DNA from: Kalmusia sp. IMI 367209
Taxonomy: Eukaryota > Ascomycota > Dothideomycetes > Pleosporales > Didymosphaeriaceae
Direction of reading: 5' to 3'
Length of the DNA: 64,000 nt
Assembly: GCA_027946365.1 (NCBI GenBank)
Contig: JAPEUQ010000005.1
Span: 1,860,001-1,924,000, forward strand
Position numbers and translations under genes: made by a program. Within the stretch, counting starts at the first letter, position 1, and every line of letters starts with the position of its first letter. Below the pieces are notes generated by a model. It searched no databases, was not told the origin of the DNA, and worked only from the letters and a program-made list of their open reading frames with translations. Of this stretch, positions 23,188 through 37,283 are shown piece by piece.

Positions 23188-23324
23188 TGGCAACAGAAAA
23201 AAATTTCTAGACCTAGTATGCGTGGAGTGTGTTATTCCCAAGATATTTATCCAATTCGGTTTTTTAGATGAACCCGGTGGTGTTGGCGTGCCTGGGTGCT
23301 GCCCGTACCTGTGTGCTACCCGTG

Positions 23325-23375
23325 CCTCGGCGCTATCCATTCCTCGGCGCTACCCATTCCTCGGCGCTACCGGTA
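23325..23375. repeat. 17-bp minisatellite, three clear units
   Basis: Units start at 23325, 23342 and 23359: CCTCGGCGCTATCCATT, CCTCGGCGCTACCCATT, CCTCGGCGCTACCGGTA. More degenerate copies (GTGCTGCCCGTACCT, GTGTGCTACCCGTGCCT) precede them from about 23297. The last unit overlaps the final codons of the RTA1 gene. Confidence 0.85.
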
Positions 23376-24290
23376 CCCATGACCATCGACGCGGTCTTGT
23401 AGTTGCATGGATACTTCTTCCGCATCTCGATTGCTATGCTTCCTGGGTACCACGCCCCCAAGGAACCTCCATGTGAACGCAGCGACTACTCCAAACATCA
23501 GAACTGCATCGAAAACGTACAACGTCCACTCATTCCTCAGAGGATACCCATCGCTGCCCATGATATACTCCACAACGCGGAAGATTGACCGCACCATGAT
23601 GAGGGCGCTGACCATGTAAAGCATGACCATAGTGCTCCTCCAGGTAGATGATCTGTCGAGTGACGCTTGTGTGGGTTGGCGTTTCAGTCGTGCATGGAAC
23701 ATGGCTGCGATGACGACGAAGAGTCCAAATATGATGATTTGGACGAACAAGCCTCCAAGAATGATGCGTTCCCCTGTCTTCATACTGTTTCCGGTGACCA
23801 TGACTCCTCCACCGGTGCCTTGAACCACGAAGGAAATGATGTCTCCGCATACAAAGATTTTGGTGAGCCATCTGACGGAAACGACGGAGTAAGATTCGGC
23901 GCGTAGGGACCGGATGAGGCGCCCAAGGACCATGTACACGGACGCGGCAAAGAGGGCCGGTGCGACGAGGATAAATATGTTCTGGATAACGTATGGCATG
24001 AGCTTGTCGGTCTTCTCTCTGGCTGCGGCTCGAGCGCAATACCCAACAAGCTCGACTGGAAGCCAAGTATCAGCGACAGCTCATTTTCGTTCAAATTAAG
24101 ATACTTGGAAAGACTTACACAGCCCTCCTAGGGCGAAAACTATACAGAAATGAGCGCGAGTCTTGATGATGCGCCAAATTATGTACCCAGTGCTCAATGC
24201 GAAAAGCACTGCGAAGAGGGCAGCAGCCGGGGTAGATGGAACATATTTCCAGAGGTAGTAAGAGCCTCTGTAGGGCTTCAACTCGGCCAT
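23367..24290 (-). CDS. RTA1-family membrane protein (first copy)
   Basis: Exons 24119-24290 and 23367-24055; 287 codons, in phase. Seven hydrophobic segments and the RTA1 signatures ELVGYCARA, LMPYVIQNIFILVAPALFAASVYM, RWLTKIFVCGDIISFVVQGTGGG and ALIMVRSIFRVVEYIMGSDG are present. The family (yeast RTA1, RSB1) sits in the plasma membrane or ER and is linked to sphingoid-base movement and resistance to 7-aminocholesterol and other lipid stresses. The C-terminus is overrun by a minisatellite. It is transcribed divergently from a Zn2Cys6 regulator across a 346-bp region that contains a CGTATA palindrome. A paralogue lies at 36299-37283. Confidence 0.93.
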
Positions 24291-24387: not shown

Positions 24388-24497
24388 TACGCGTATAAGA
24401 AGAGCTCGTATTCGATGAGGTATACTTAGGTCCTTTGAGATTAGCGCGGAGGATGCACGGAATGATCATTGACGTACGCACGCTATACGCGTATAGC
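24388..24497. promoter_or_regulatory. CGTATA palindrome and half-site in divergent RTA1/regulator promoter
   Basis: 24482-24497 reads GCTATACGCGTATAGC, a perfect 16-nt palindrome made of two inverted CGTATA half-sites. A partial copy, TACGCGTATA, lies at 24388-24397. The same core occurs twice upstream of the second RTA1 gene. CGTATA is the core of the yeast Upc2/Ecm22 sterol response element (TCGTATA). Binding by the adjacent regulator is inference. Confidence 0.6.
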
Positions 24498-24636
24498 TTC
24501 GGGACAAAGCCACTAGCAGCCCCAAAGCGCATCTGCCGCAGATTCTGCTTCTACGAAATACACGTATCCGCTCTTCGGCTTGCATCTTACACGCTTTGCC
24601 GAAGCCTTTGGCTGCCTCTTGATTGTCTTTCTAAGG

Positions 24637-25815
24637 ATGAAGCCCGAAGCCCGCCCTGGTACGTCGAGACGTCGCCGTGCCCACCAGAAGTCCAAAAATG
24701 GTTGCAGCGTATGCAAGACACGACACATTAAGTGTGACGAACGTCGTCCGAGATGCACCAATTGCACCACGACTCATCGTGCCTGTTCATTCCCAGAGTC
24801 CATCACAGCCCGAGAAACTCCAACCGCCCCGGCTACCCTAGCAAGCCCGGCAAGCATCGTGAAGCCCACCGCGTCTAACGATTCCGACACGCGCGGGCAG
24901 GCCGGAGCTCTTTTCACCTACAGCCACCTCGCTTGCTTGCATCACGCTGAGACACATATGCACGAGTACCTAGCGCTGCGCGGGACCGCGCAGCCGATTG
25001 TTGATCGCGCTATAGGCTCCACCACCACAGCGCCGTTTCTTCTCAACCAAGTGCTTGCTCTGTCCGCGCTTCACCTTGCCGCGGAGGCACAAGATGTTGC
25101 CGAGGACGCAGGGTATCGCCAGCAAGCTACTGAGTTGCAGACACGCGCTCTCCAGCTATTCAATAGAGCTAGAGAAGAAAGCTGCGACGCGAACTCCATC
25201 CCTGCGTTCCTCTTCGCGTCCCTTCTCGGCATCCACGTTCTCCAAGAGACCCTAGCCAGCCATCGAGACGACCTCTCAGCGTTCATCGATGCTTTCGCTC
25301 ACTATGTTCGCCTGCATCAGGGGGTCCGTACCGTTATCGCCAATGGTTCATGGCCTGCGATCCTTCAATCTGATCTCAAGCCGCTGCTCTACTTTTCAGA
25401 GCTGAGTGACGATAGGGCTGGGCAGACGCCAGGAGAAGACACTCTCAAATTGAGTGAATTCTTGAGAGAATATAACGCAGGCCCTGAGTCCACTCATGCC
25501 TGCCAAACCGCGCTTGAACGAATTCAGTGGATGCTAGATCTGTCCAAGCAAGATGCGTCTCGAGACGACGTGGGGATACACGCAACCATGGCGTGGCCAG
25601 TCTTGGTGCCGCCGGCTTACATCGAAGTCTTGCACCAGCACCGACCAGAGGCTCTTGCCGTCCTAGCATTCTACGCAGCGGCTCTGCATCGATATCGCCA
25701 TTTCTGGGTGTTTGGAGGATCGGGATTGCCATTACTATCTGCCATCCTGCGTAGCATTGGTTCATTCTGGCAAGACAATCTAGGCATGTCGGTTGAAACG
25801 ATGTTGGTTGCTTAG
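24637..25815 (+). CDS. Zn2Cys6 regulator, Upc2-like layout, 392 aa
   Basis: Single exon, ATG 24637 to TAG 25815. After a basic start SRRRRAHQKSK, the six-cysteine cluster is NGCSVCKTRHIKCDERRPRCTNC...ACSF at about residues 23-50, the class seen in Upc2/sterol regulators. The remainder matches the C-terminal regulatory domain of that class: HLACLHHAETHMHEYLAL, LLNQVLALSALHLAA, FLFASLLGIHVLQETL, and the block AWPVLVPPAYIEVLHQHRPEALAVLAFYAAALHRYR near the end. Yeast Upc2 senses ergosterol with its C-terminal domain; ligand sensing here is inferred only. Its promoter is shared with the RTA1 gene at 23367-24290 and holds the palindrome at 24482, so autoregulation is plausible. A finger-less paralogue sits at 27216-28212. 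Confidence 0.92.
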   Translation: MKPEARPGTSRRRRAHQKSKNGCSVCKTRHIKCDERRPRCTNCTTTHRACSFPESITARETPTAPATLASPASIVKPTASNDSDTRGQAGALFTYSHLACLHHAETHMHEYLALRGTAQPIVDRAIGSTTTAPFLLNQVLALSALHLAAEAQDVAEDAGYRQQATELQTRALQLFNRAREESCDANSIPAFLFASLLGIHVLQETLASHRDDLSAFIDAFAHYVRLHQGVRTVIANGSWPAILQSDLKPLLYFSELSDDRAGQTPGEDTLKLSEFLREYNAGPESTHACQTALERIQWMLDLSKQDASRDDVGIHATMAWPVLVPPAYIEVLHQHRPEALAVLAFYAAALHRYRHFWVFGGSGLPLLSAILRSIGSFWQDNLGMSVETMLVA

Positions 25816-26273
25816 ATCTTTTGTCGTAACTAGTACTCCCAGGCATGAGTTTGTGGGCTCTCTCCTCACTTTCAATATTTGCGACACGATGCCTCCAAAT
25901 TCTGGAAATTTCACATGCCTAAACAAATCCTATCGCAAGGTCGTACATTCGTACTCAGACTCATTCGACAGAGTGGCACTGTGAAGCATCGCCACGCACG
26001 GGCATCTGCCGCTTTACCAATGCTAGATCAGAGTCAGGCTTATACGACGATACGACAGAATCGCCGCAGGTAACTCTGGCCAGGCAAAACTTCAAGACAT
26101 CAGGCACCAAGAAAGGATTTAATGAATATGAACAGTTCCAACCCCTTCAACACAACACATTTTACCATAAACCGATCCTTAAACGCAGAAGCGAGTGCCG
26201 CTTGAGCGAAGCACAACAAATGACATCAAACAGCCGCTGACGAAGGCTCTGCACACGGTAATCAGGGGAGAGC
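25816..26273. other. Intergenic region
   Basis: 3' flank of the regulator and 5' flank of the unknown two-exon gene. Small frames (25793-26073) show nothing recognisable. Confidence 0.4.
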
Positions 26274-27005
26274 ATGCGGTATCGCTTTGTCAAGCCAACC
26301 AAGTATGGCGACACCAACCGCCTACGGACTGCGCTCGTTGCCCAACTACAGCTCGTCGGAGAGTGCGGCAGCCTGTACGAGACGATAGATTTTCTGTTTG
26401 TTGGGTTCCTCACAGCAAGGTTTGCAACAAAGCTTCAGCGCTTTTCCGAACGGTTGGGATGCCCTCTAGACTTCGTCGTCAAAACAGGTTTCGTGACTGG
26501 GATGGCGTCGCGCTCATGTACGGCAACAGAATCTCCGTCGATTGTGGCAGCCATTATCCAGGACAAGCATGCAAAGGGCGCACCGAGTCAGAGCAGATTG
26601 TCAGTCTGGCCTCAAGGGATTGTCATCACGGTATCACCCATTGGATCGAGTGGCTACGAAATCTCCAAGACGGCGCAGAAGATCGCTCGGTGGGAATCTC
26701 GAAGCACTGCGGTGAGTGCGTGCTAGACAGCTACAACAAATCGATCTGACGATTGACAGACTGGAATTGTCTTCGAGCTTAAGCTACCTAAACCGACTAG
26801 CGTCGTTGCTCTATTGGACAGAGTTGGGCTTCGTTTGGTGGATGATGAGCGGAGCAGCGACATAAGGCTCTGTTGGCAGGACGGGCGTTATGAAAACAAG
26901 GGTGACGCAGGCCAGCAGCAATATGGAGATAGCTGGAGGTACATGGTCCTCGTCACAGGAATTTGGGTTGCCTACAAAGAAGGCTGGCTTTCTGGTAAAT
27001 CGTGA
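26274..27005 (+). CDS. Hypothetical two-exon protein, 227 aa
   Basis: Exon 1 26274-26711 and exon 2 26760-27005 join in phase across a 48-bp intron with GTGAGT donor and TTGACAG acceptor (228 codons). Exon 1 starts MRYRFVKPTKYGDTNRLRTA and ends SGYEISKTAQKIARWESRSTA; exon 2 continues TGIVFELKLPKPTSVVALLD, SSDIRLCWQDGRYENKGDAG, DSWRYMVLVTGIWVAYKEGW. I do not recognise a family. No signal peptide or membrane segment is evident. The in-phase splice and protein-like composition support it; an overlapping frame (26195-26749) is the competing shadow. It sits between the Upc2-like regulator and its finger-less paralogue. Confidence 0.5.
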
Positions 27006-27215
27006 TCGAATGCTATTATTGTTGAGAGATAAGTCATGAAGCCTACCATTGTCCCGCGTCCTGTTTCATCCTCCCTTTTTCTTCCTATTCTGTTCGTTCC
27101 TTTCCGGCAAGTGGCTTCCAAAGACTGCCAAATCTGCGTCAGGAAAGCCGAATGATGGACTTAGGAACTAGACCGCAAAAAAATCTTCTGGAAACTCTCC
27201 GTTAGATGGCCATGG

Positions 27216-28212
27216 CTAGAGCATGGCATTAAGCGTGACAATCTCTCGTGGCCATCGCAGCCACGGACTCCAAGCGGCGCCCAGTCGAGCACTCACGCAC
27301 CTTACCAAGCTTTGGCCAACGTTGCCGACGAACCAGACGTTGCTATGTCGGTGGAGCAGTCTACCGTAGAAAGACAAAATAACCAGTGCCTCAGGCGTCC
27401 GAGCCCTGAGCAAATCGATGAAGTCTGACGATAGCAATGACGGCCAAGCGAAGACAGCGCATGTTTCGTCCATACCTTGCGAAGCTGCGGGCTCGAGATG
27501 AAAGCACCACTGTAGGGAGGTAACGGCCTCACAACATGCCCGCATCGACTCCTTGCTCAGACGCGCAGTGTCCATCATAGCAAGAAGCGGGCTACATTCG
27601 TCAAATTGGCGGTCGTAAGCGGCTGGTTGGTTCTGGGCTTCTTGGAGGACTGGCCACAGCGGAGACTGGCGTAGTTTGGTCCCTGATTCATGCACTATCA
27701 GACGAGCGCCTCGCTGTATGTCCATGAACGATAATATTCGCTCAAAAAATGCATCACAATCCACAGGCTCCTTTCCATTGCTACTTGATGCGTCGAAAAG
27801 TCTGTGCGCTGCAAGGAGGCCTGAGAAAAGAAGCAGAGCAGGTGCAGCTGCGTCGTCCAGCTTGATGGCAACGGACGAATAGCTCGCTAGAGACGCAACT
27901 CGTAGAGCGTGCGCCTGGGTTGAGAAAATTGTCTGTCTTGAAGGCGCCGAGATGCGATGCTGACACTGCTAGCAATTGCAACCGAAGGTATGGTGCGCGG
28001 TCGGCGAGATCCAAAATGGTTTCGGGAGACACGCTCCGGGAGAAGCTGAAATTAGGAAAGGTCTGACTGAAATAGTGCTCTAGTAAGGCGGTCTCGTCGA
28101 GATCGCTTTGCAATCCAGTGGGATAGGAGGTTCCCGCTGGAACGCTGGGCTGCTGTCTCGGATAACCTCCGCACAGAAGATTGAAGAGTTGATTGGCATT
28201 TGGAAGAGACAT
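27216..28212 (-). CDS. Upc2-like regulator paralogue without a zinc cluster (one frame break)
   Basis: From ATG 28212, MSLPNANQLFNLLCGGYP leads into the regulatory domain of the Upc2-like class: DETALLEHYFSQTF, LADRAPYLRLQLLAVSASHLGAFKTDNF. At the T4 run (A4 on the plus strand, 27925-27928) the frame shifts; the other frame continues TQAHALRVASLASYSSVA to the end VTLNAML at 27216. Removing one T gives exactly 332 codons. The C-terminal part is paralogous to the neighbour at 24637-25815: AWPSLLSSDFIDLLRARTPEALVILSFYGRLLHRHSNVW aligns with that protein's AWPVL...LHRYRHFW. No Cys cluster lies upstream on this strand, and a TATA box (28281-28288) close to the ATG argues that none was lost by mis-annotation. 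Function unknown; a modulator that dimerises without binding DNA is possible. It may also be a fresh pseudogene. Confidence 0.7.
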
Positions 28213-28280
28213 AATAAGAAGTATTTATTTCACGACGAGGTGGCTAATGTTTCCACAGATGGAGACAAGAGACGCTTCGA

Positions 28281-28288
28281 TTTATATA
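28281..28288 (-). promoter_or_regulatory. TATA box of finger-less regulator
   Basis: TATATAAA on the minus strand about 70 bp upstream of the ATG at 28212, well placed for a core promoter. Two CGTATT direct repeats lie further upstream near 28515-28525. Confidence 0.4.
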
Positions 28289-28299
28289 ATGTGTGTGAA

Positions 28300-29500
28300 A
28301 GAAATCCTGGGTGTTCACGAGAGTACCACGGGAGCTGAATTGAGAGGTGCCCGACGTATTCGACGTACGTTCGTGGTTACGTACCGCCTACACAACAACA
28401 GTCGCTTTAATCGTCGCCACGCTCGCAAAAATCAGAGTACAGCACGAAGCTTCAGCGAATGCTCGCCAAAGTCCGAAGGCAATACGTGTATCGTGAGCAC
28501 CACGCTTATAAACTCGTATTACGTATTGGGTGCACGCGATTCCCACATATGCTAATGAATTCTAGGCTGCAAGGCCCTACCGTTGCGGCAAGGACCGTAA
28601 CGATCGCCATCGCCACTGCGTTCTTAGGTACGATTGCCAATAAACCCCCCCGATATTGCTTTAGCGTGCCTTTGGTAATGATATTGAGTTTCCTGCTTTC
28701 TAGCTTCCCAGTGCACAGCTTGAGGTGTTCTCATTAGATACAATGCGCTAATCCATGAGAGACTTCGCTCTTGACCCGCCATGCGATATTGCGTACAGCA
28801 CGCGGCATGGAGCACCATTGTAGCATGAAGACTTCTCTATGCTCTCGCCCCAGTGGTTTTTTTTCATGACACTAGAAGGCATCAGCTACTGGCGGGTTAG
28901 TAAACCGAGTCTTTGTGAGGTGAATGCAACTGCCAATGGAGGGCGTCGAGCTGATGTTCGATTATTCCCGGGAGCGGAAAGACCATTTTCTAGCTACCTT
29001 GACTTCCACTAATCCGATCTACTTGATTCGTAAATAGGTTATATTGCCATGTTTTTGCTGTTGTGTTCGCAGCAATCTGCCGGGCCTCTCCAGGGGTCCC
29101 AGCGGGGCAAGTGATACAACCCTGAAGAGCTGTCAGCCAAACGAAGGCAAGAAGGCTACCGCCGCCCAGGTCCCAGACCATCGAAGGTATCTGCGCAGGG
29201 ATGCCTGCTCATAGTACAATATTCAAGGCTGCTTGGGTGGCGTAGCACGTCGCAGGCTCAGTTGACATTCCGACGATTAGATCAGTCTCCCACCTGATGA
29301 CATTACCGTAGGCTCCAAGAAATGTCAAGACAAAAGATGTGTGAAGATAAAAACTGCAAGAGATCAAATGCGAATTTTCCAATTTTTTTTTCTTTCTTTG
29401 TTCTTGAAGTAGAACTGATACATGGGCCAGAAGCGCGATACGAGTTAGACCCAGTTCCACGTATACGTTGCGCGCACGGACAAAATAGGCAACAACGTAA
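28300..29500. other. Gene-poor spacer, possible coding debris
   Basis: Leftward frames at 29209-29460 and 28990-29181 contain protein-like, partly hydrophobic text (SMVWDLGGGSLLAFVWLTAL) separated by stops. This may be a relic of a gene I cannot identify. No intact gene seen. Confidence 0.3.
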
Positions 29501-29651
29501 CGACTGACGGGGGATTCTCATTGGGTTACTCCATCAGGCGCATGGCATTCCGCGTATCTCGCCGAGGAGGTACCGACTGACGGGGGATTCTCATTGGGTT
29601 ACTCCATCAGGCGCATGGCATTCCGCGTATCTCGCCGAGGAGGTACCGACT
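29501..29651. repeat. Perfect 73-bp tandem duplication
   Basis: 29501-29573 and 29574-29646 are identical, both beginning CGACTGACGGGGGATTCTCA and ending GCCGAGGAGGTAC; the first five bases recur at 29647-29651. The lack of any mismatch points to a very recent duplication. It lies about 200 bp upstream of the glycosyltransferase start. Confidence 0.95.
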
Positions 29652-29848
29652 TCCGCACCGAATACGTCGTATAGTAGAGACGCTAAAACTACTATGGCTC
29701 CAACAGTCAGGTCCAGGGTCGCGACTTGCGCGTTCAGCATGGTTTTAAACATTTTCTTCGCCGCTTGGTGCAGCCAGAGTGACCTAACTCAGTTCCAGCT
29801 TCTCCGCTTGTATACTCCATGGGACATCCAGAGTGCCAGGACGCGAGC

Positions 29849-32497
29849 ATGCCGCCGTCCCCATACCTGAGTGATAGCGCTGAGCGTGACGCCCCCCCGC
29901 AGTACATGCTGGAGGATCCGCTCTCTTCGATGCCTAGCCTAGGCGATACCGGTGTCACCAGTAGGTTCTGAGCTGCAGAGAATTGCAGTTGTCTGTTGCT
30001 GAAACCCTCGCAGACGACGGACGTATAGACATTGATCTCGATTCGCACCTCACGAAGGCAATTGTCAAATGGGCAACCAAAGGAAATTCCGAAATACCAG
30101 ACCGCCGGCCCAGTCGCCGACTGACCGTCTATCGATCTTGGGCTGTTCGGCTCAATGTAGTCATCCAAGTTGTTGGCAGTCGCGGCGATGTGCAACCCTT
30201 CATTGCGCTTGGCAAAGAGCTGCAGAGGTACGGACACCGCGTGCGATTGGCAACCCATAACGTTTTCGACACTTTCGTTCGCGAGTCGGGCCTCGAATTC
30301 TATCCCATCGGGGGCGATCCGAAGGAGCTCATGGCGTATATGGTGAAGAATCCCGGGCTCATCCCGAGCATGAAGAGTCTGCGCGAGGGTGATATCCAGC
30401 GAAAACGAACCATGATTATGGAGCTACTCCAGGGATGCTGGAGGGCTTGCATCGAGCAAGATGTACACACCGAGCAGCCCTTCGTGGCCGATGCCATCAT
30501 TGCCAACCCGCCGAGCTTCGCTCACGTCCACTGTGCGCAAGCACTGGGCGTTCCGCTGCATCTCATGTTCACCATGCCGTGGAGCAGCACCAGAGCCTTC
30601 CCACACCCGTTGGCGAACTTCAAAGCTGGCGAGATATCCCCAGCAATAATTAATTTTGCGAGCTATGGCATCGTCGAGTGGTTGACCTGGCAAGGGTGAG
30701 TGTTCGACTACCGCGTTTGTTTGACGTGCTGCCTGACTTCCGTTGTGAACAGACTAGGTGACATTATCAACAAGTGGAGACAGACTCTAGATCTGGAGCC
30801 GATACCTGCTACAGTCGGACCCGTACTTGCGGAGCTTCTCAAAGTGCCTTTTACCTACTGCTGGTCTCCTGCGTTGGTTCCAAAACCCCCGGATTGGGGC
30901 GAACACATTGGTCCGTGATTGCACTCAGCCTTGTTTATCGTTCTTCTGACCCCTCGGCAGACGTTTGCGGCTTCTTCTTCCGCGATCCACCGTCCTATGA
31001 TCCGCCCGCAATTATCGATAAATTCCTTAGAGCTGGCGAACGACCCGTCTATATTGGCTTCGGCAGCATCGTAATTGACGATCCCGCGAGAATGACTTCG
31101 ACCATCCTGGAAGCTGTACGATCGTGCGGCGCTCGCGCGATTATCTCTCGAGGATGGAGCAACCTTGGCGAGGGGCTTTCCTCTCATAGTGATGCCGTCT
31201 TGTTCATTGACGATTGCCCGCACGAGTGGCTGTTCCAGCACGTTGCAGCCGTTGTCCATCATGGGGGAGCTGGTACAGCAGCGTGTGGCCTCCGCAATGC
31301 ATGCCCCACGGTGGTCGTTCCTTTCTTTGGCGAGTACGGCTTTTCTTGAAACATCTTCTGACCAGTGTCATTGACTCCAATTTTTAGCCAGCCTTTTTGG
31401 GGCGATATGGTCGCAGCTGCAGGAGCAGGGCCGCCTCCCATCCCGCACACTAGTCTCGACAGTAAAAATCTTGCCCAAGCTATATCATTCTGCTTGACGC
31501 CCGAAGCCATGACCTCGGCACACGATATTTCGTTACGGATGTCTTCTGAGAACGGTGTGCAAGCCGCTGTTCAGTCTTTCCACGCGAACCTGCCACTAGA
31601 GACGATCCAGTGTGACGTCCTGCCGCACCTGCCCGCAGCTTGGGAGTATAAGAAAACACGAATAAAGCTCTCGAAGCTCGCTGCTCAAGTGCTAATGGAA
31701 AATTCCGTCTTCGACCAATCCGAGATCAGATTGTACGCACACGCATCGTATCTTGTTAACGAAAGACCTTCTAAAACCTACACAGATATGAAACCCAGCC
31801 AACATTCATCAACAACCCTCGTTGGGACCCTGTGACGAGCACATCATCTGCCTACATCTCCTGGGTCCACGATATCGTATCCTCCTCTACTGGCATCATA
31901 CGTTCGCCGATATCCGAGCTCCGACGCTCAAACGCAGAGGGTGCGTCTAGCGGACAGACAGCGGGCCGCATGGCCGCTGCATCGGCTAAGAAGTTTGGCT
32001 ATTTCAACATGGCCATCTTCAAGGGTCTAGGGGTTGATATTCCCTATGCGTGCGCAGAGGGTCTACGCGCAGTTCCCAAGCTCTATGGCGAAGAGGTCAA
32101 GGACCACGGGGACGTCAAAGACTGGAGTAGCGGCTTCGAAGTGGCTGGCAAGAATTTTGCGCACGGCATGATGGATGGCGTGACGGGTCTGTGGACTAGA
32201 CCCATTGAGGAAGGCAAGTCGGATGGCGCATTAGGCGTCGCCAGAGGTGTTGGGAAGGGCGTGCTGGGCTTCGGGAGCAAGGTTGCATCAGCAGGCCTGG
32301 GGCTGGTGGCCTACCCGGGCCAGGGCATCTGCAAGAGCATTCGTCATGTGGCGAAGTCGCATACTCGGAGGAATATCAAGACGCACAAATTAAAAGAGGG
32401 CGAGCATCTGGTTAGGTGTCTAGATGAGGCAGATGTTTTGGCTGTGCTGAATAGGTTTCAGCTGCTGCGAGACGAGAGGTCTCGACGACAGACATAA
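29849..32497 (+). CDS. UDP-glycosyltransferase (GT1/GT28, sterol-glucosyltransferase-like) with two frame breaks
   Basis: The protein opens [20 protein letters not shown], then [20 protein letters not shown], and the GT28 N-terminal fold [53 protein letters not shown]. Introns at 30698-30752, 30912-30960 and 31333-31387 (approximate) join in phase. The donor-binding half has [34 protein letters not shown] and [11 protein letters not shown]-terminal extension of about 220 aa ([46 protein letters not shown]) is usual for this fungal subfamily. Related enzymes glucosylate sterols (Atg26 type). Frame breaks: about 29963-29966 (one base short before VLSCRELQ) and 31791-31796 (AAACCC, one base short before [14 protein letters not shown]). 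Either two consensus errors or a young pseudogene. Confidence 0.85.
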
Positions 32498-32799
32498 CGT
32501 GGAGATTGCTGTAGGTTTCTTCAGAGGAATCGATCCAAAAAGAAATCGTTCGTTCCATTGTTATGGTCGTCCAGCTAGTGCATGAGTATGAGGATTGATA
32601 GTTGGTGGTAATCATATTGTGTAAAAGATTTTACGTGTGGCTTATATCATGCGGTCTGCATAGCTGCTACTCTACTTGTCACACATTGGATCAGCCATTG
32701 TAGCTGACAGAGATGTGCTATGATTTATCCACATGACATCCCATTTTCATTCAGCACTCAGCTATTGGTGGGTGAAGCATCTTTCATGCAGTAGGTGTG

Positions 32800-33080
32800 A
32801 TACACCGTCTTGAAAACTGTGACGGTATCTCAAATCTACGACCATCACAGTGTTTCAAAGTGATTCATAGTGAAACACTATCACGGGGATTAGGTTTATG
32901 ATAGTTCTTATAGTGATTTACAGCAAGACACTATTACATGAACTTATATAATTTATAGTAAATTACTCTAAAAGGAGCTTATACTTAACTAGGTAGTAGG
33001 GGGATCCTATATATTATATGGTCACCTTAGCACCTAGTATATAGAGAGCTCTTCTAAGATAGTTTCATAGTGAACCAAAT
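32800..33080. repeat. AT-rich degenerate repeats with hairpin
   Basis: Variants of CATAGTGAAACACTATCAC recur (near 32865, 32910, 32950, 33065). AGTGTTTCA at 32849-32857 pairs with TGAAACACT at 32871-32879 across a 13-nt loop. The region looks like the remains of an AT-converted repeat. The rest of 32498-33209 holds the two convergent 3' flanks and no gene that I can see. Confidence 0.5.
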
Positions 33081-33209
33081 TCTCAACTCCTCTTTTCGGT
33101 TCCGTCACAAACTAAAACTGGAGCTACGACTGGAGCTACGGACAAACACACTAGTACCTACACTTGCTATTCATAGAGCTCGTACGATAGGGAATTGCGT
33201 GAGATATTC

Positions 33210-35083
33210 CTAGAATCTTCGACAGAGCTTCCCACTATCCAGATCGTAGTGCCATGCATGACTACCAACGCCCGCCTGCACGTACAAGCTGGCGGTAGGG
33301 TCGTATTTTTCCTTGATAGCAGCCAGGCGATCGTAGTATCCGCCATAGAAGTCCTTTTTGAAGTTGCTGTTGAACGGGTTCGCTTCGTTGATGTAGGAGC
33401 CTGAGTCGGGAGCCCACCTGCGCCAGACCGCTTCTTTGTGTTCTTCCGTCCATGCAGCTGCATCTGCGAGAGCGTCGCTGGGTTTGGACCCGGTGGTGTT
33501 GACATTGGCTCCGGTGCTGATGAGGTGGACGTAGGCCGTCCGCCAGGCCGGGGTCAGAGCGCCGCGCATCCCCGCTTCGACACTCCTAGGACCCGGACCG
33601 CCTTGGAGGCCGTAGACCAGCCTGGACTGGCGACCACTGACTTGCGCCTTCATGATGCTCTGAAGGTGGGCTCGCAGTTCATCTGCTGGTAAGTCGGTGA
33701 GCTCGCGGCGACCCAGCAATCGGCTGGAGGTCAGACTGATATCGCCACAGCTGCTGGGGCCAGGATTCAGAGCGTCGAAAAGGGCGGAGTACGATGACAG
33801 AACTTCAGGTTCCGAAAGCACGACGGAGAGTGCCCGGTCATCTCCTATTGCAGCCATACGACTCCTCACGGGTTCAAGAAGGGATTTGTACGCCGCTACC
33901 GTAGTGTTGAAGCCAAAAAACGTCAAAGCCAGCTCGACTCCTTTACGAGGAGATGTCCCGTCCGAGGCAACGTCCTTCGTCACAGCGTATCCGTTTCCCG
34001 TTAGGCCTGCGTCCATGAGGTCTGGGAGAGATCGAGACAACAACGTCAACGCGGTCCAAGATGCATCTGTGACGTCGCGTGTACTATTGGCGACCATCGA
34101 CATCGAGAGCGTGCCGATGACAACGTTTTCAGGTAACGGGAGCGTGCGCAGCACGTACTCGACGACAATGCCATACAGACCGGGCCCACCCCCACGGATA
34201 GCCCACAACAAGTCCGTGTGTTGGGCGTCGTTGGTTATCAGAATCTGGCCTTCAGTCGTAACGATCGTCGCCTGAAGGACCTGGTCTGCTGCAAGTCCAT
34301 AGTGGCTCGACAGTGGGCCATGCCCGCCGCCTCCGATGAACCCACCAAGGCCAACTGTCGGATCCTGTCCGCTAACCACGGTCCTCCCGACCGCTGCAGC
34401 GGATCGCAACGCAGTGCCCCAATTGTTCCCACTTCCGACCACAACCACGTTTTCTGTCTTGTTCTCAAGAGGATGCGGCCAACTCGCATCAAACCTAATG
34501 CTTTGGAGGTGGCGAGTCCAGATGGACAAGGAGTGTGCTCCGCTAGACCTAGTGAGTCCGTTAGTTGATCGCAGTCGATATAGACTACTGGGCTAGTAGA
34601 AAATGCTGACCTGCCATTCAAATCGTGCCCCGTGCCCTTGATTACGAGTCGCACGTTGCGCGAACTTGCCCATCTGGCTGCGATGGCAATCTGCTCAGCA
34701 TTTGTTGCGTTGAGGATATAGCTGGGAAGGCCACCAAGCTTGCAACGCTGGCCTGGCACATAAGCATAGTCGTTGGGGGGCACACACGAGTTGTTGGCCC
34801 AGTAGGGATAGCCGATCGATTCTGGTTGCTTCGCATGAAACTCAGAATGGAACCAATCTTCTTGTACTGCATCACAGCCAACAGAAGATGACCAGGAGCT
34901 GTCATTATAGCAGGACGCTGCGACTGGGCTAGCTCTGATCAATGCTCCATTGGTAGACCGGTTCAAGGCGCTCCAATCGTCGATATCCGGCCAACCGAAG
35001 TCGAGCGGATGGCTCTTGCAGATGGTGTTTGCCTTAGCTGGGCAAAGGAGCGAGGAGGCCAATAAGGCCTTTTTGATCCACAT
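33210..35083 (-). CDS. Secreted FAD-linked oxidase, berberine-bridge-enzyme-like, 603 aa
   Basis: Exons 34611-35083 and 33210-34548, 604 codons, in phase. MWIKKALLASSLLCPAKA is a signal peptide. The FAD_binding_4 domain runs from NATNAEQIAIAARWASSRNV through VIKGTGHDLNGRSSGAHSLS (conserved His) and GGFIGGGGHGPLSSHYGLAADQV. The BBE tail is SYINEANPFNSNFKKDFYGG..YDRLAAIKEKYDP. Such flavoenzymes oxidise alcohols, sugars or alkaloid-like intermediates and are common in fungal secondary metabolism; the substrate is not predictable. The start at 35083 was preferred to an upstream in-frame one because it begins the signal peptide. There are several potential N-glycosylation sites (NRS, NDS, NNS, NTT). 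Confidence 0.93.
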
Positions 35084-36298
35084 GACGGTGGCCTGTCCCG
35101 ACGAGTGTGAGCGGGGAAAGATAGATACTAAAAAGAACGCAGGGTCGAGAGTACATGCAGACAAGATTCTGCACGGAACACTTCATATGTAGCAATGTGA
35201 TATGTCCGCATAGCCTCAACTTTGCGCTAGATGTGAGCCGTGCTAGCTCGGTCGTGTGTCCGCATGTCAAGTAATCATGCTTCACATTTCCTGCTACCCT
35301 TCTTCAATACGCCGTATATTGGTTCCGGAGATTAGGCGCACACTGATATGGATACTACGACATTGCGTACCCGAGGTAAACATTGGCGCCTCTGGCTTCG
35401 GACTCTTTTCCTAGAGCGATTGCACTGGCGCCGTCTGAGAGAGCATATCCACTTGGCCCATTCCGACAGACAAAGGCTGCTAGGCCCGAGCCCGTGGTCT
35501 GGGTAAACTCGGCACTGCGTAACCGCCAGTAGCAAGACCGACCTTCTCGGGGACGCTCAGAGGCTGTGTTGACGATCAACAAGCACTACTGTTTGAGGGC
35601 TGCCTGTTTTCTCACCTTCAGGAGACCTGGGTAACATTGCGTCATGCGCCCTTTCAGTATTCGAAGCTTCGCATCGATCGTTACGCTCATTCACCCTGCG
35701 ATGCATGACATGGTGGGTGGATGATGTTACACCCGATCAATACCGGAGCAAAAACATGATGCCTTTGCGAGATTTTTTTTTTGGAATGATTTTGCCCTGG
35801 AAAGAATGATGAAAGGGTATTAGGATGCACCTACCACATGTCGTCACCAACTCAACAGCCTTTTGAAAACATAGCCACCAGAATTCGATTTCCGGATGTC
35901 CCTGCCGCGCGTTATGATGGTAAAGAGACGCCATTGAAAAAGCTGGGTTCCACACGAAGTTGTCTTGACCGCGGATTAGGAGCAGATCTGTGCTGACCAC
36001 CTGCGTATGTCGCATCTAGCCGCGCTAATTGCACCAGCGCTATACGCGTATAGAGCATGCGTCACATGCGGCCGCGCGAACTACAAGACCCCACCAGCGC
36101 CATACGCGTATAGACCATCCGCCTTGGCCTTTTGTATACCCCTTTTATCTATTGTTCGTTTCAGGGTCCCTTGAGTGATTTTGATAGTCTAGATAACATG
36201 TGTTGGAACCCTCCTTCGTGTACGAATTTTCACCGTAGCATTATTATTACCATCTATCTTTCCAGGCTGAACTCTTTGACTCTCAACCCTTGATCGCC
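35084..36298. other. Divergent intergenic region, BBE-like oxidase and RTA1 copy 2
   Basis: 1.2 kb without a recognised gene; frames at 35355-35582 and 35737-36015 lack domains. The right end carries two CGTATA palindromes listed separately. 35350-35560 reads partly like coding debris in the minus frames, but nothing identifiable. Confidence 0.4.
36032..36113. promoter_or_regulatory. Duplicated CGTATA palindrome upstream of RTA1 copy 2
   Basis: CACCAGCGCTATACGCGTATAG (22 nt; 36032-36053) recurs with one mismatch at 36092-36113, exactly 60 bp apart and about 190-260 bp before the RTA1 ATG. The core TATACGCGTATA equals the palindrome in the promoter of the first RTA1 gene. A shared regulator is inferred. 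Confidence 0.65.
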
Positions 36299-37283
36299 AT
36301 GTCTACAGATGGCGGATTCAAATTTTATCATTACGATCCGTCTTTCGGCGCGGCTGTCACCTTTGTCGTTTTCTTCGGAATCGTCTCGATCCGTCACGTT
36401 CAGCTTCTCTTCAAGAACAGGACGTGGTGTTTTATCTCCTTTCTGATCGGCTGCTTTTGTACGTCTGACCTCCGTCGTCACACTGCTTCCACTACTGACG
36501 TAATGTGCGCTGCCAGTCGAAGCCATCGGATATGTTGCGCGAGCCATCTCTGCTCGACAGAGCCCTGATTGGACTTTGAAACCATACATCATGCAAAGCT
36601 TGTTGACGTTGCTCGGACCTACACTCTACGCTGCTTCTATTTACATGGTGTTCGGGCGACTCGTTGGATTACTTGAGGCCGGGTCTTACTCTCTGATCAA
36701 GCCGAGGTGGCTTACCAAGTTCTTCCTTCTGGGAGATATACTGTCTTTCCTTGGACAAAGTGGAGGTGTGTCCGCTGTGCGCTGAGAGAGACTATGCTGC
36801 ACGATGGTGGTCCAATGCAGAGGCTGACTCAGCGTTCTAGGTGGTGGCATTCTCGCAACAGCCAAATCGGAATCTTCTCAGAGCCTGGGAAATAAGGTCA
36901 TTCTGCTTGGGCTCGGGATCCAGGTTGTCTTCTTTGCCTTCTTCATGGTCGTCACCGTCGTTTTCCATCTCCGAATCATACGAAACCCGACCACGAAATC
37001 CCTTACCGTGCCTGTGCCATGGGCCAGATTCCTATGGATACTGTATCTCGCCAGTTTGCTCATCATGGTACGCTCCGTGTTCCGCATGACCGAGTATGCA
37101 CAGGGAAACGACGGCGCCTTGATGCAAAAGGAAGTCTACGTTTACCTCCTGGATGCCACGCTTATGTTTATTGTCGCTGCTGTGTTTGCTGTGTATCATC
37201 CTGGTGACATTCTCCAGCGATATGGCGTGTTGAAGGAGGACTTCGGGAATGTGACCGGGTCTGATAGCTTGCCCATGGTGTAG
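36299..37283 (+). CDS. RTA1-family membrane protein (second copy)
   Basis: Exons 36299-36458, 36517-36765 and 36841-37283; 284 codons, in phase. Family marks: EAIGYVARAISARQSPDWTL, YIMQSLLTLLGPTLYAASIYM, RWLTKFFLLGDILSFLGQSGGG, LASLLIMVRSVFRMTEYAQG, and EVYVYLLDATLMF. Seven hydrophobic segments. It is paralogous to, but clearly diverged from, the copy at 23367-24290, so it is not a recent duplicate. The role would be lipid export or flipping, or resistance, in the plasma membrane (family knowledge). Its promoter carries two copies of the CGTATA palindrome. Confidence 0.93.

Follow-up and report, generated by a model that had tools for sequence, protein, structure and literature searches.

Which protein reads the palindrome that stands before two separate RTA1 genes of the fungus Kalmusia sp. 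IMI 367209, and does this shared sequence unite the genes under one regulator? The window, by which we mean the whole analysed stretch of 64,000 nucleotides (positions 1,860,001 to 1,924,000 of JAPEUQ010000005.1, part of the contig denoted here as C26), contains the two RTA1 genes, RTA1-1 and RTA1-2, a Zn2Cys6 regulator gene diverging from the first of them, and a flavin adenine dinucleotide (FAD)-linked oxidase gene diverging from the second. With a probability of about 0.7, we suppose that this local Upc2-type regulator has the palindrome as its operator and would control its own gene, both RTA1 genes and perhaps the oxidase. The grounds for this proposal lie in sequence: the sites, their pairing, their rarity and promoter position, the domains and fold of the regulator, a paralogous module in the same genome, and the contigs of other fungi on which the homologues occur together. 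From these we infer the binding, the dimerisation, the ligand, the direction of control and the membership of the oxidase.

Palindromic sites and the regulator of the window

The first-pass annotation had pointed to a perfect palindrome between RTA1-1 and the regulator and to two more before RTA1-2. The former is indeed present as site B (GCTATACGCGTATAGC, 24482-24497), a perfect palindrome of 16 bp. As to the latter two, site C (CTATACGCGTATAG, 36040-36053, about 250 bp before the start codon of RTA1-2) is a perfect 14-mer, while site D (CCATACGCGTATAG, 36100-36113, about 190 bp before the same codon) is one mismatch away from a palindrome. Sites C and D had been assigned to a duplicated 22-mer with a spacing of 60 bp; the spacing is correct, but the repeat is longer, being a direct repeat of 30 bp (starts at 36032 and 36092) in which 27 of the 30 bases are equal. 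A fourth site, absent from the earlier list, is TACGCGTA at 24388-24395 (site A), a half palindrome (GGTACGCGTATAAG) that precedes the ATG of RTA1-1 by about 100 bp and that of the regulator by 245 bp. Within the window all four copies of TACGCGTA fall in two intergenic regions, the one between RTA1-1 and the regulator and the one preceding RTA1-2. With up to one mismatch allowed, TATACGCGTATA has three matches in the window, as compared to a mean of 0.10 in shuffled sequences, none of 100 shuffles reaching three.

RTA1-1 (23367-24290, minus strand; exons 24290-24119 and 24055-23367; 286 amino acids) and RTA1-2 (36299-37283, plus strand; exons 36299-36458, 36517-36765 and 36841-37283; 283 amino acids) both belong to the RTA1 family (PF04479, cut-off 24 bits), the former with 209.3 bits and the latter in two pieces of 129.5 and 87.8 bits. 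Recent duplication was considered as the source of the shared sites and was rejected, because the two proteins are only 42% identical, their introns differ, and the palindrome is the sole match between the two promoters.

The regulator (24637-25815, plus strand) is encoded by a single exon and comprises 392 amino acids, of which residues 22-56 at the N-terminus form a Zn2Cys6 cluster (PF00172, 29.9 bits at a cut-off of 21). The protein also has the fold of the Upc2 ligand-binding domain, which bears out its initial description as Upc2-like. The public model of this gene in Kalmusia sp. IMI 367209 (N0V90_005951, 346 amino acids) omits the zinc cluster, and the annotated protein would therefore look like one that does not bind DNA. 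The search for an NCBIfam name for the regulator returned none, nor was a relative found in viral contigs.

Most Zn2Cys6 proteins recognize CGG triplets, while Upc2 and Ecm22 of yeast recognize the sterol response element TCGTATA with its core CGTATA (PMC3334620), as the first-pass annotation had stated; how factors of the Upc2 type read CGTATA is named there as an open question. Reading of TCGTATA instead of CGG triplets makes a CGTATA palindrome a fitting site for the regulator. CGG triplets were also considered as the real operator, and no arrangement of them is common to both window promoters and the promoter of the paralogous module described below.

One more Upc2-like reading frame lies between the RTA1 genes (27216-28212, minus strand; 26% identical to the regulator across 230 positions). 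It is distributed over two different frames, with no recognisable zinc cluster seen in them, and may be either a paralogue in decay or a gene interrupted by an intron.

Genomic distribution and the paralogous module

The search covered the genome of 42,784,582 bases. Exact CTATACGCGTATAG is found in two places, both in the window, where each copy precedes an RTA1 gene by some 200-250 bp; exact TATACGCGTATA is found in three, two of them in the window (two in the control). The third exact copy of this 12-mer, on C10, was rejected as a target, its 3-kb surroundings having 23% GC and no open reading frame of 70 amino acids or more. Close pairs were sought at two spacings, 40-100 bases for TACGCGTA and 101-131 bases for ACGCGTAT. 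Pairs of TACGCGTA occur in two places, both in the window, and in three places in the reversed-letter control, so it is the location alone that is remarkable. Genome-wide enrichment was tried as proof and discarded: the 10-mer ATACGCGTAT has 47 copies as compared to 39 in the control, and the 14-mer CTATACGCGTATAG with up to two mismatches has 105 as compared to 164. The unusual feature of the motif is its location, not its genome-wide number.

Six of the 47 ATACGCGTAT copies belong to two modules, that of the window and a second one on contig C7, which was found afterwards by protein similarity and not by the motif. Of the full-length paralogues of the regulator, the closest (31% identity) is encoded there, in divergent orientation to an RTA1 gene which partial sequences place on a distant branch of the family. 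The zinc clusters in this comparison are nearly alike (RRSHKKSRAGCSQCKRRHVKCDEQRPVC against RRAHQKSKNGCSVCKTRHIKCDERRPRC, with exon ends chosen by eye). The intergenic region of 580 bp between the two genes carries two copies of AATACGCGTATT and one half-site CTATACGCG. All four genomic rows of ACGCGTAT pairs lie in the C7 module, with none in the control; three of them are between the regulator and RTA1 (two being the same palindromes on both strands), and the fourth, 4 kb away, precedes a FAD oxidase gene by 0.2-0.35 kb, counting from its probable start (L071:987). The exon following this start matches PF01565 with 55.4 bits, the only family seen in this partial piece; an alpha/beta hydrolase frame is situated between this oxidase and the C7 regulator. 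The two window regions have ATACGCGTAT as the longest word of 7-10 bases in common with both the intergenic region and the oxidase promoter of C7. Since the C7 RTA1 of the distant branch has these sites, the site appears to follow the regulator and not the branch of the RTA1 family.

The oxidase of the window is of the berberine-bridge type (33210-35083, minus strand) and matches, at 33213-34592, PF01565 (44.9 bits) and PF08031 (33.1 bits), both above the cut-off. Sites C and D lie between it and RTA1-2, roughly 1 kb away from the probable start of the oxidase, and this distance makes their control of the oxidase uncertain.

The association of the regulator with RTA1 is not confined to the two modules. 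Seven of the 11 Upc2-like paralogues, that is, those matching beyond the zinc cluster (two C8 rows were counted once and cluster-only rows were dropped), have an RTA1 gene no more than 4 kb away, the chance of which is about 0.4% for each. The genome has about 23 RTA1 loci, and 21 of them were used for a comparison of promoters (the weak hits C3c and C12d were left out). RTA1-2 was counted as linked although the regulator is 12 kb away, and so was C3b although its neighbour matches in the zinc cluster alone; for five of the 13 unlinked genes (C5a, C12a, C23b, C2 and C12c) the start codons are estimates that do not fall on an ATG. The six linked promoters outside the window contain four copies of CTATACG in three promoters, against 0.23 predicted from its number in the genome (P 9e-5 by count and 1e-3 by promoter), and the 13 unlinked ones contain a single copy. 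With the window included, the ratio is 5/8 linked to 1/13 unlinked promoters. The shorter CGTATA is present in both window RTA1 promoters and occurs six times in four of the six other linked promoters (p 0.004 and 0.011). Apart from this comparison, the promoter of the unlinked RTA1 gene C5c (L043) has a tight run of CGTAT/ATACG pentamers, nine within 500 bp, six of which are at -185 to -144.

A probable operator function and its alternatives

If the palindrome is an operator, the system could work as follows. The Zn2Cys6 protein encoded at 24637 would bind to the inverted repeat TATACG-CGTATA, extended to CTATACGCGTATAG, probably in dimeric form, so that each CGTATA half-site is contacted by one zinc cluster. 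Sensing of a hydrophobic ligand by the Upc2-type domain would permit activation, and the activated regulator would induce together its own gene, the divergent RTA1-1 and, 12 kb away, RTA1-2; the FAD oxidase diverging from RTA1-2 might be induced as well.

Several results weigh against this interpretation. The number of ATACGCGTAT copies is at chance level, and 41 of the 47 are outside both modules (the surroundings were read for one of the 41, an AT-rich stretch). The match of the regulator to Fungal_trans_2 (PF11951), 19.1 bits, is under Pfam's cut-off of 21. When the window promoters are set aside, the difference in CTATACG between linked and unlinked promoters (3/6 and 1/13) has a p of 0.07. 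CGTATA is somewhat frequent in unlinked promoters too (seven copies in five of 13, where 2.5 copies in 2.2 promoters are expected; p 0.016 and 0.053), it is absent from two of the eight linked promoters (C25a and C3b), and in one more, C23a, there is one CGTATA without CTATACG. The first-pass annotation held that a motif common and unbiased throughout the genome would refute the link, and this objection applies by half: the total is near chance, but the close pairs, at the spacings searched, are confined to two regulator-RTA1 modules.

The dispersed copies and the mildly raised CGTATA content of unlinked RTA1 promoters speak for binding of the sites by some other protein, such as a general factor of lipid or drug stress, the Upc2-like gene being merely one of its targets. 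We consider this unlikely, though deserving attention, since the paired sites found so far do not leave the two regulator-RTA1 modules, the same sites accompany an RTA1 gene of a distant branch on C7, and CTATACG prefers the linked promoters. Another candidate is suggested by the centre of the sites. In all four window sites it is ACGCGT, the MluI cell-cycle box to which MBF binds, and the genes could then be regulated with the cell cycle; however, the longest common words (ATACGCGTAT) extend past this hexamer, and neither the two CTATACG sites of C7b nor the single one of C8 contains it, which renders such control quite improbable.

That the sharing is due to chance or is a remnant of a duplicated promoter is a little more improbable still. 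The chance-level abundance of ATACGCGTAT would agree with it, and so would the fact that the finding was picked after being seen, but the palindrome is the sole part in which the promoters agree, the RTA1 proteins are no more than 42% identical, and the C7 module came to light without recourse to the motif. Finally, an inverted repeat near gene starts might act as an RNA hairpin in the leader. This we regard as hardly credible: the repeat has no spacer for a loop, site B is between two divergent genes, and the three window copies examined fold no better than shuffled sequences (z 0.62, 0.14 and -1.52). An operator of the local Upc2-type regulator is thus the explanation that we prefer.

Possible sterol control, known systems and other fungi

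The first-pass annotation proposed a compact, autoregulated lipid-stress regulon. The motif does mark the promoters of both RTA1 genes and of the regulator, but the part of the proposal concerning sterol stress is so far unsupported. None of the 47 ATACGCGTAT copies is on C23, which carries ERG2, or on C6 and C16, which carry the two ERG4/24 loci over Pfam's cut-off, and a weak ERG4/24 match under the cut-off at C26:255418 is more than 1.1 Mb from the nearest copy. A sterol regulon is therefore unproven and the sterol as ligand is a guess, the more so because in Candida glabrata the induction of RTA1 by fluconazole is higher and not lower without Upc2A (PMC8509923).

Compared with Upc2 and Ecm22, the Kalmusia regulator has the Upc2 fold and, in its presumed sites, the CGTATA core. 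The differences are that it is a protein of 392 amino acids, that these sites are palindromes (CTATACG-CGTATAG) where yeast has a single TCGTATA, and that its apparent targets are the adjoining RTA1 genes, with no palindrome on the contigs of ERG2 and ERG4/24. Outside yeasts, general sterol control is attributed to SREBP or SR-type factors (PMC9605146). Among the latter, FgSR (Sordariomycetes/Leotiomycetes) is, like the Kalmusia regulator, a Zn2Cys6 factor, and it is linked to sterol control; it reads an element of 16 bp in 119 promoters, including those of 20 ergosterol genes (PMC9605146). Cluster-specific Zn2Cys6 regulators are similar to the Kalmusia one in that the gene is beside its presumed targets and the same site recurs in several target promoters, but here the regulator has a ligand domain of the Upc2 type and the conserved set consists of membrane proteins. 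In the PKS2 cluster table of Fusarium graminearum, the RTA1 genes FGSG_04705 and FGSG_04706 are beside the C6 factor FGSG_12584 (PMC4022177). Studies of how Aspergillus fumigatus responds to azoles list RTA1 genes among the strongest responders and describe the family as little known. A regulator-RTA1 pair with this site was not seen described in the open literature searched, much of it in extracts, which is no proof of absence.

The link between the regulator and RTA1, first noticed in the window, recurs in the Kalmusia genome and also in other fungi. The regulator, RTA1-1 and RTA1-2 were used as queries, and the best 120 matches of each (out of 171, 1320 and 416, respectively) were compared by contig, contigs of identical length being taken as the same and species checked by eye; occurrence on the same contig need not mean that the genes are neighbours. 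Among these matches, homologues of all three proteins are together on at least seven contigs, which belong to six other species: Lojkania enalia, Boeremia exigua, Dactylonectria macrodidyma, Emericellopsis atlantica, Stachybotrys chartarum and Thelonectria olida, the last with two such contigs. Within the same matches, at least eight further contigs have the regulator with one RTA1 homologue, and at least eight more have both RTA1 homologues without a listed regulator. The contigs bearing regulator and RTA1 homologues include those of Lojkania enalia (217,584 bp), Boeremia exigua (2,526,334 bp), Aaosphaeria arxii (475,924 bp), Thelonectria olida (85,535 bp) and Cylindrodendrum hubeiense (206,020 bp). 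That the genes are close together is indicated by consecutive locus tags in Cylindrodendrum hubeiense (g2779, g2780, g2781), by consecutive and near ones in Stachybotrys chartarum (00617, 00618, 00621) and by near ones in Fusarium euwallaceae (003952, 003954). Kalmusia belongs to Pleosporales, Dothideomycetes; as Lojkania is also a dothideomycete and Thelonectria a sordariomycete, the gene set seems to have been kept together across two classes. By sequence comparison it is the set of the regulator and two RTA1 genes that is conserved; the palindrome itself was sought within the Kalmusia genome.

These data lead us to a broader suggestion, offered tentatively and at somewhat less than even odds, that the module is an old cassette of filamentous ascomycetes, in which a receptor of the Upc2 type has kept the specificity of yeast Upc2 for CGTATA, in the form of a palindrome, and controls an RTA1 pair and a FAD oxidase beside it but not ergosterol synthesis. 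It might serve as a self-contained, ligand-inducible switch for the export or modification of membrane-active lipids or sterol-like toxins, with several copies in one genome that differ in operator spacing and flanks. If the operator is real, the RTA1 family would acquire a regulator that can be named, together with an exact DNA site and a definite set of targets. It would also suggest that the reading of CGTATA is common to Upc2-type factors outside yeasts, while the regulator-RTA1 module would point to a small self-contained switch responding to lipids or toxins.

Two tandem repeats were also observed in the window: a 73-bp unit in 2.1 copies with 98% identity (29497-29651), upstream of a glycosyltransferase (GT28-type) reading frame, and a 17-bp unit repeated five times (23287-23371), upstream of a short-chain dehydrogenase gene.

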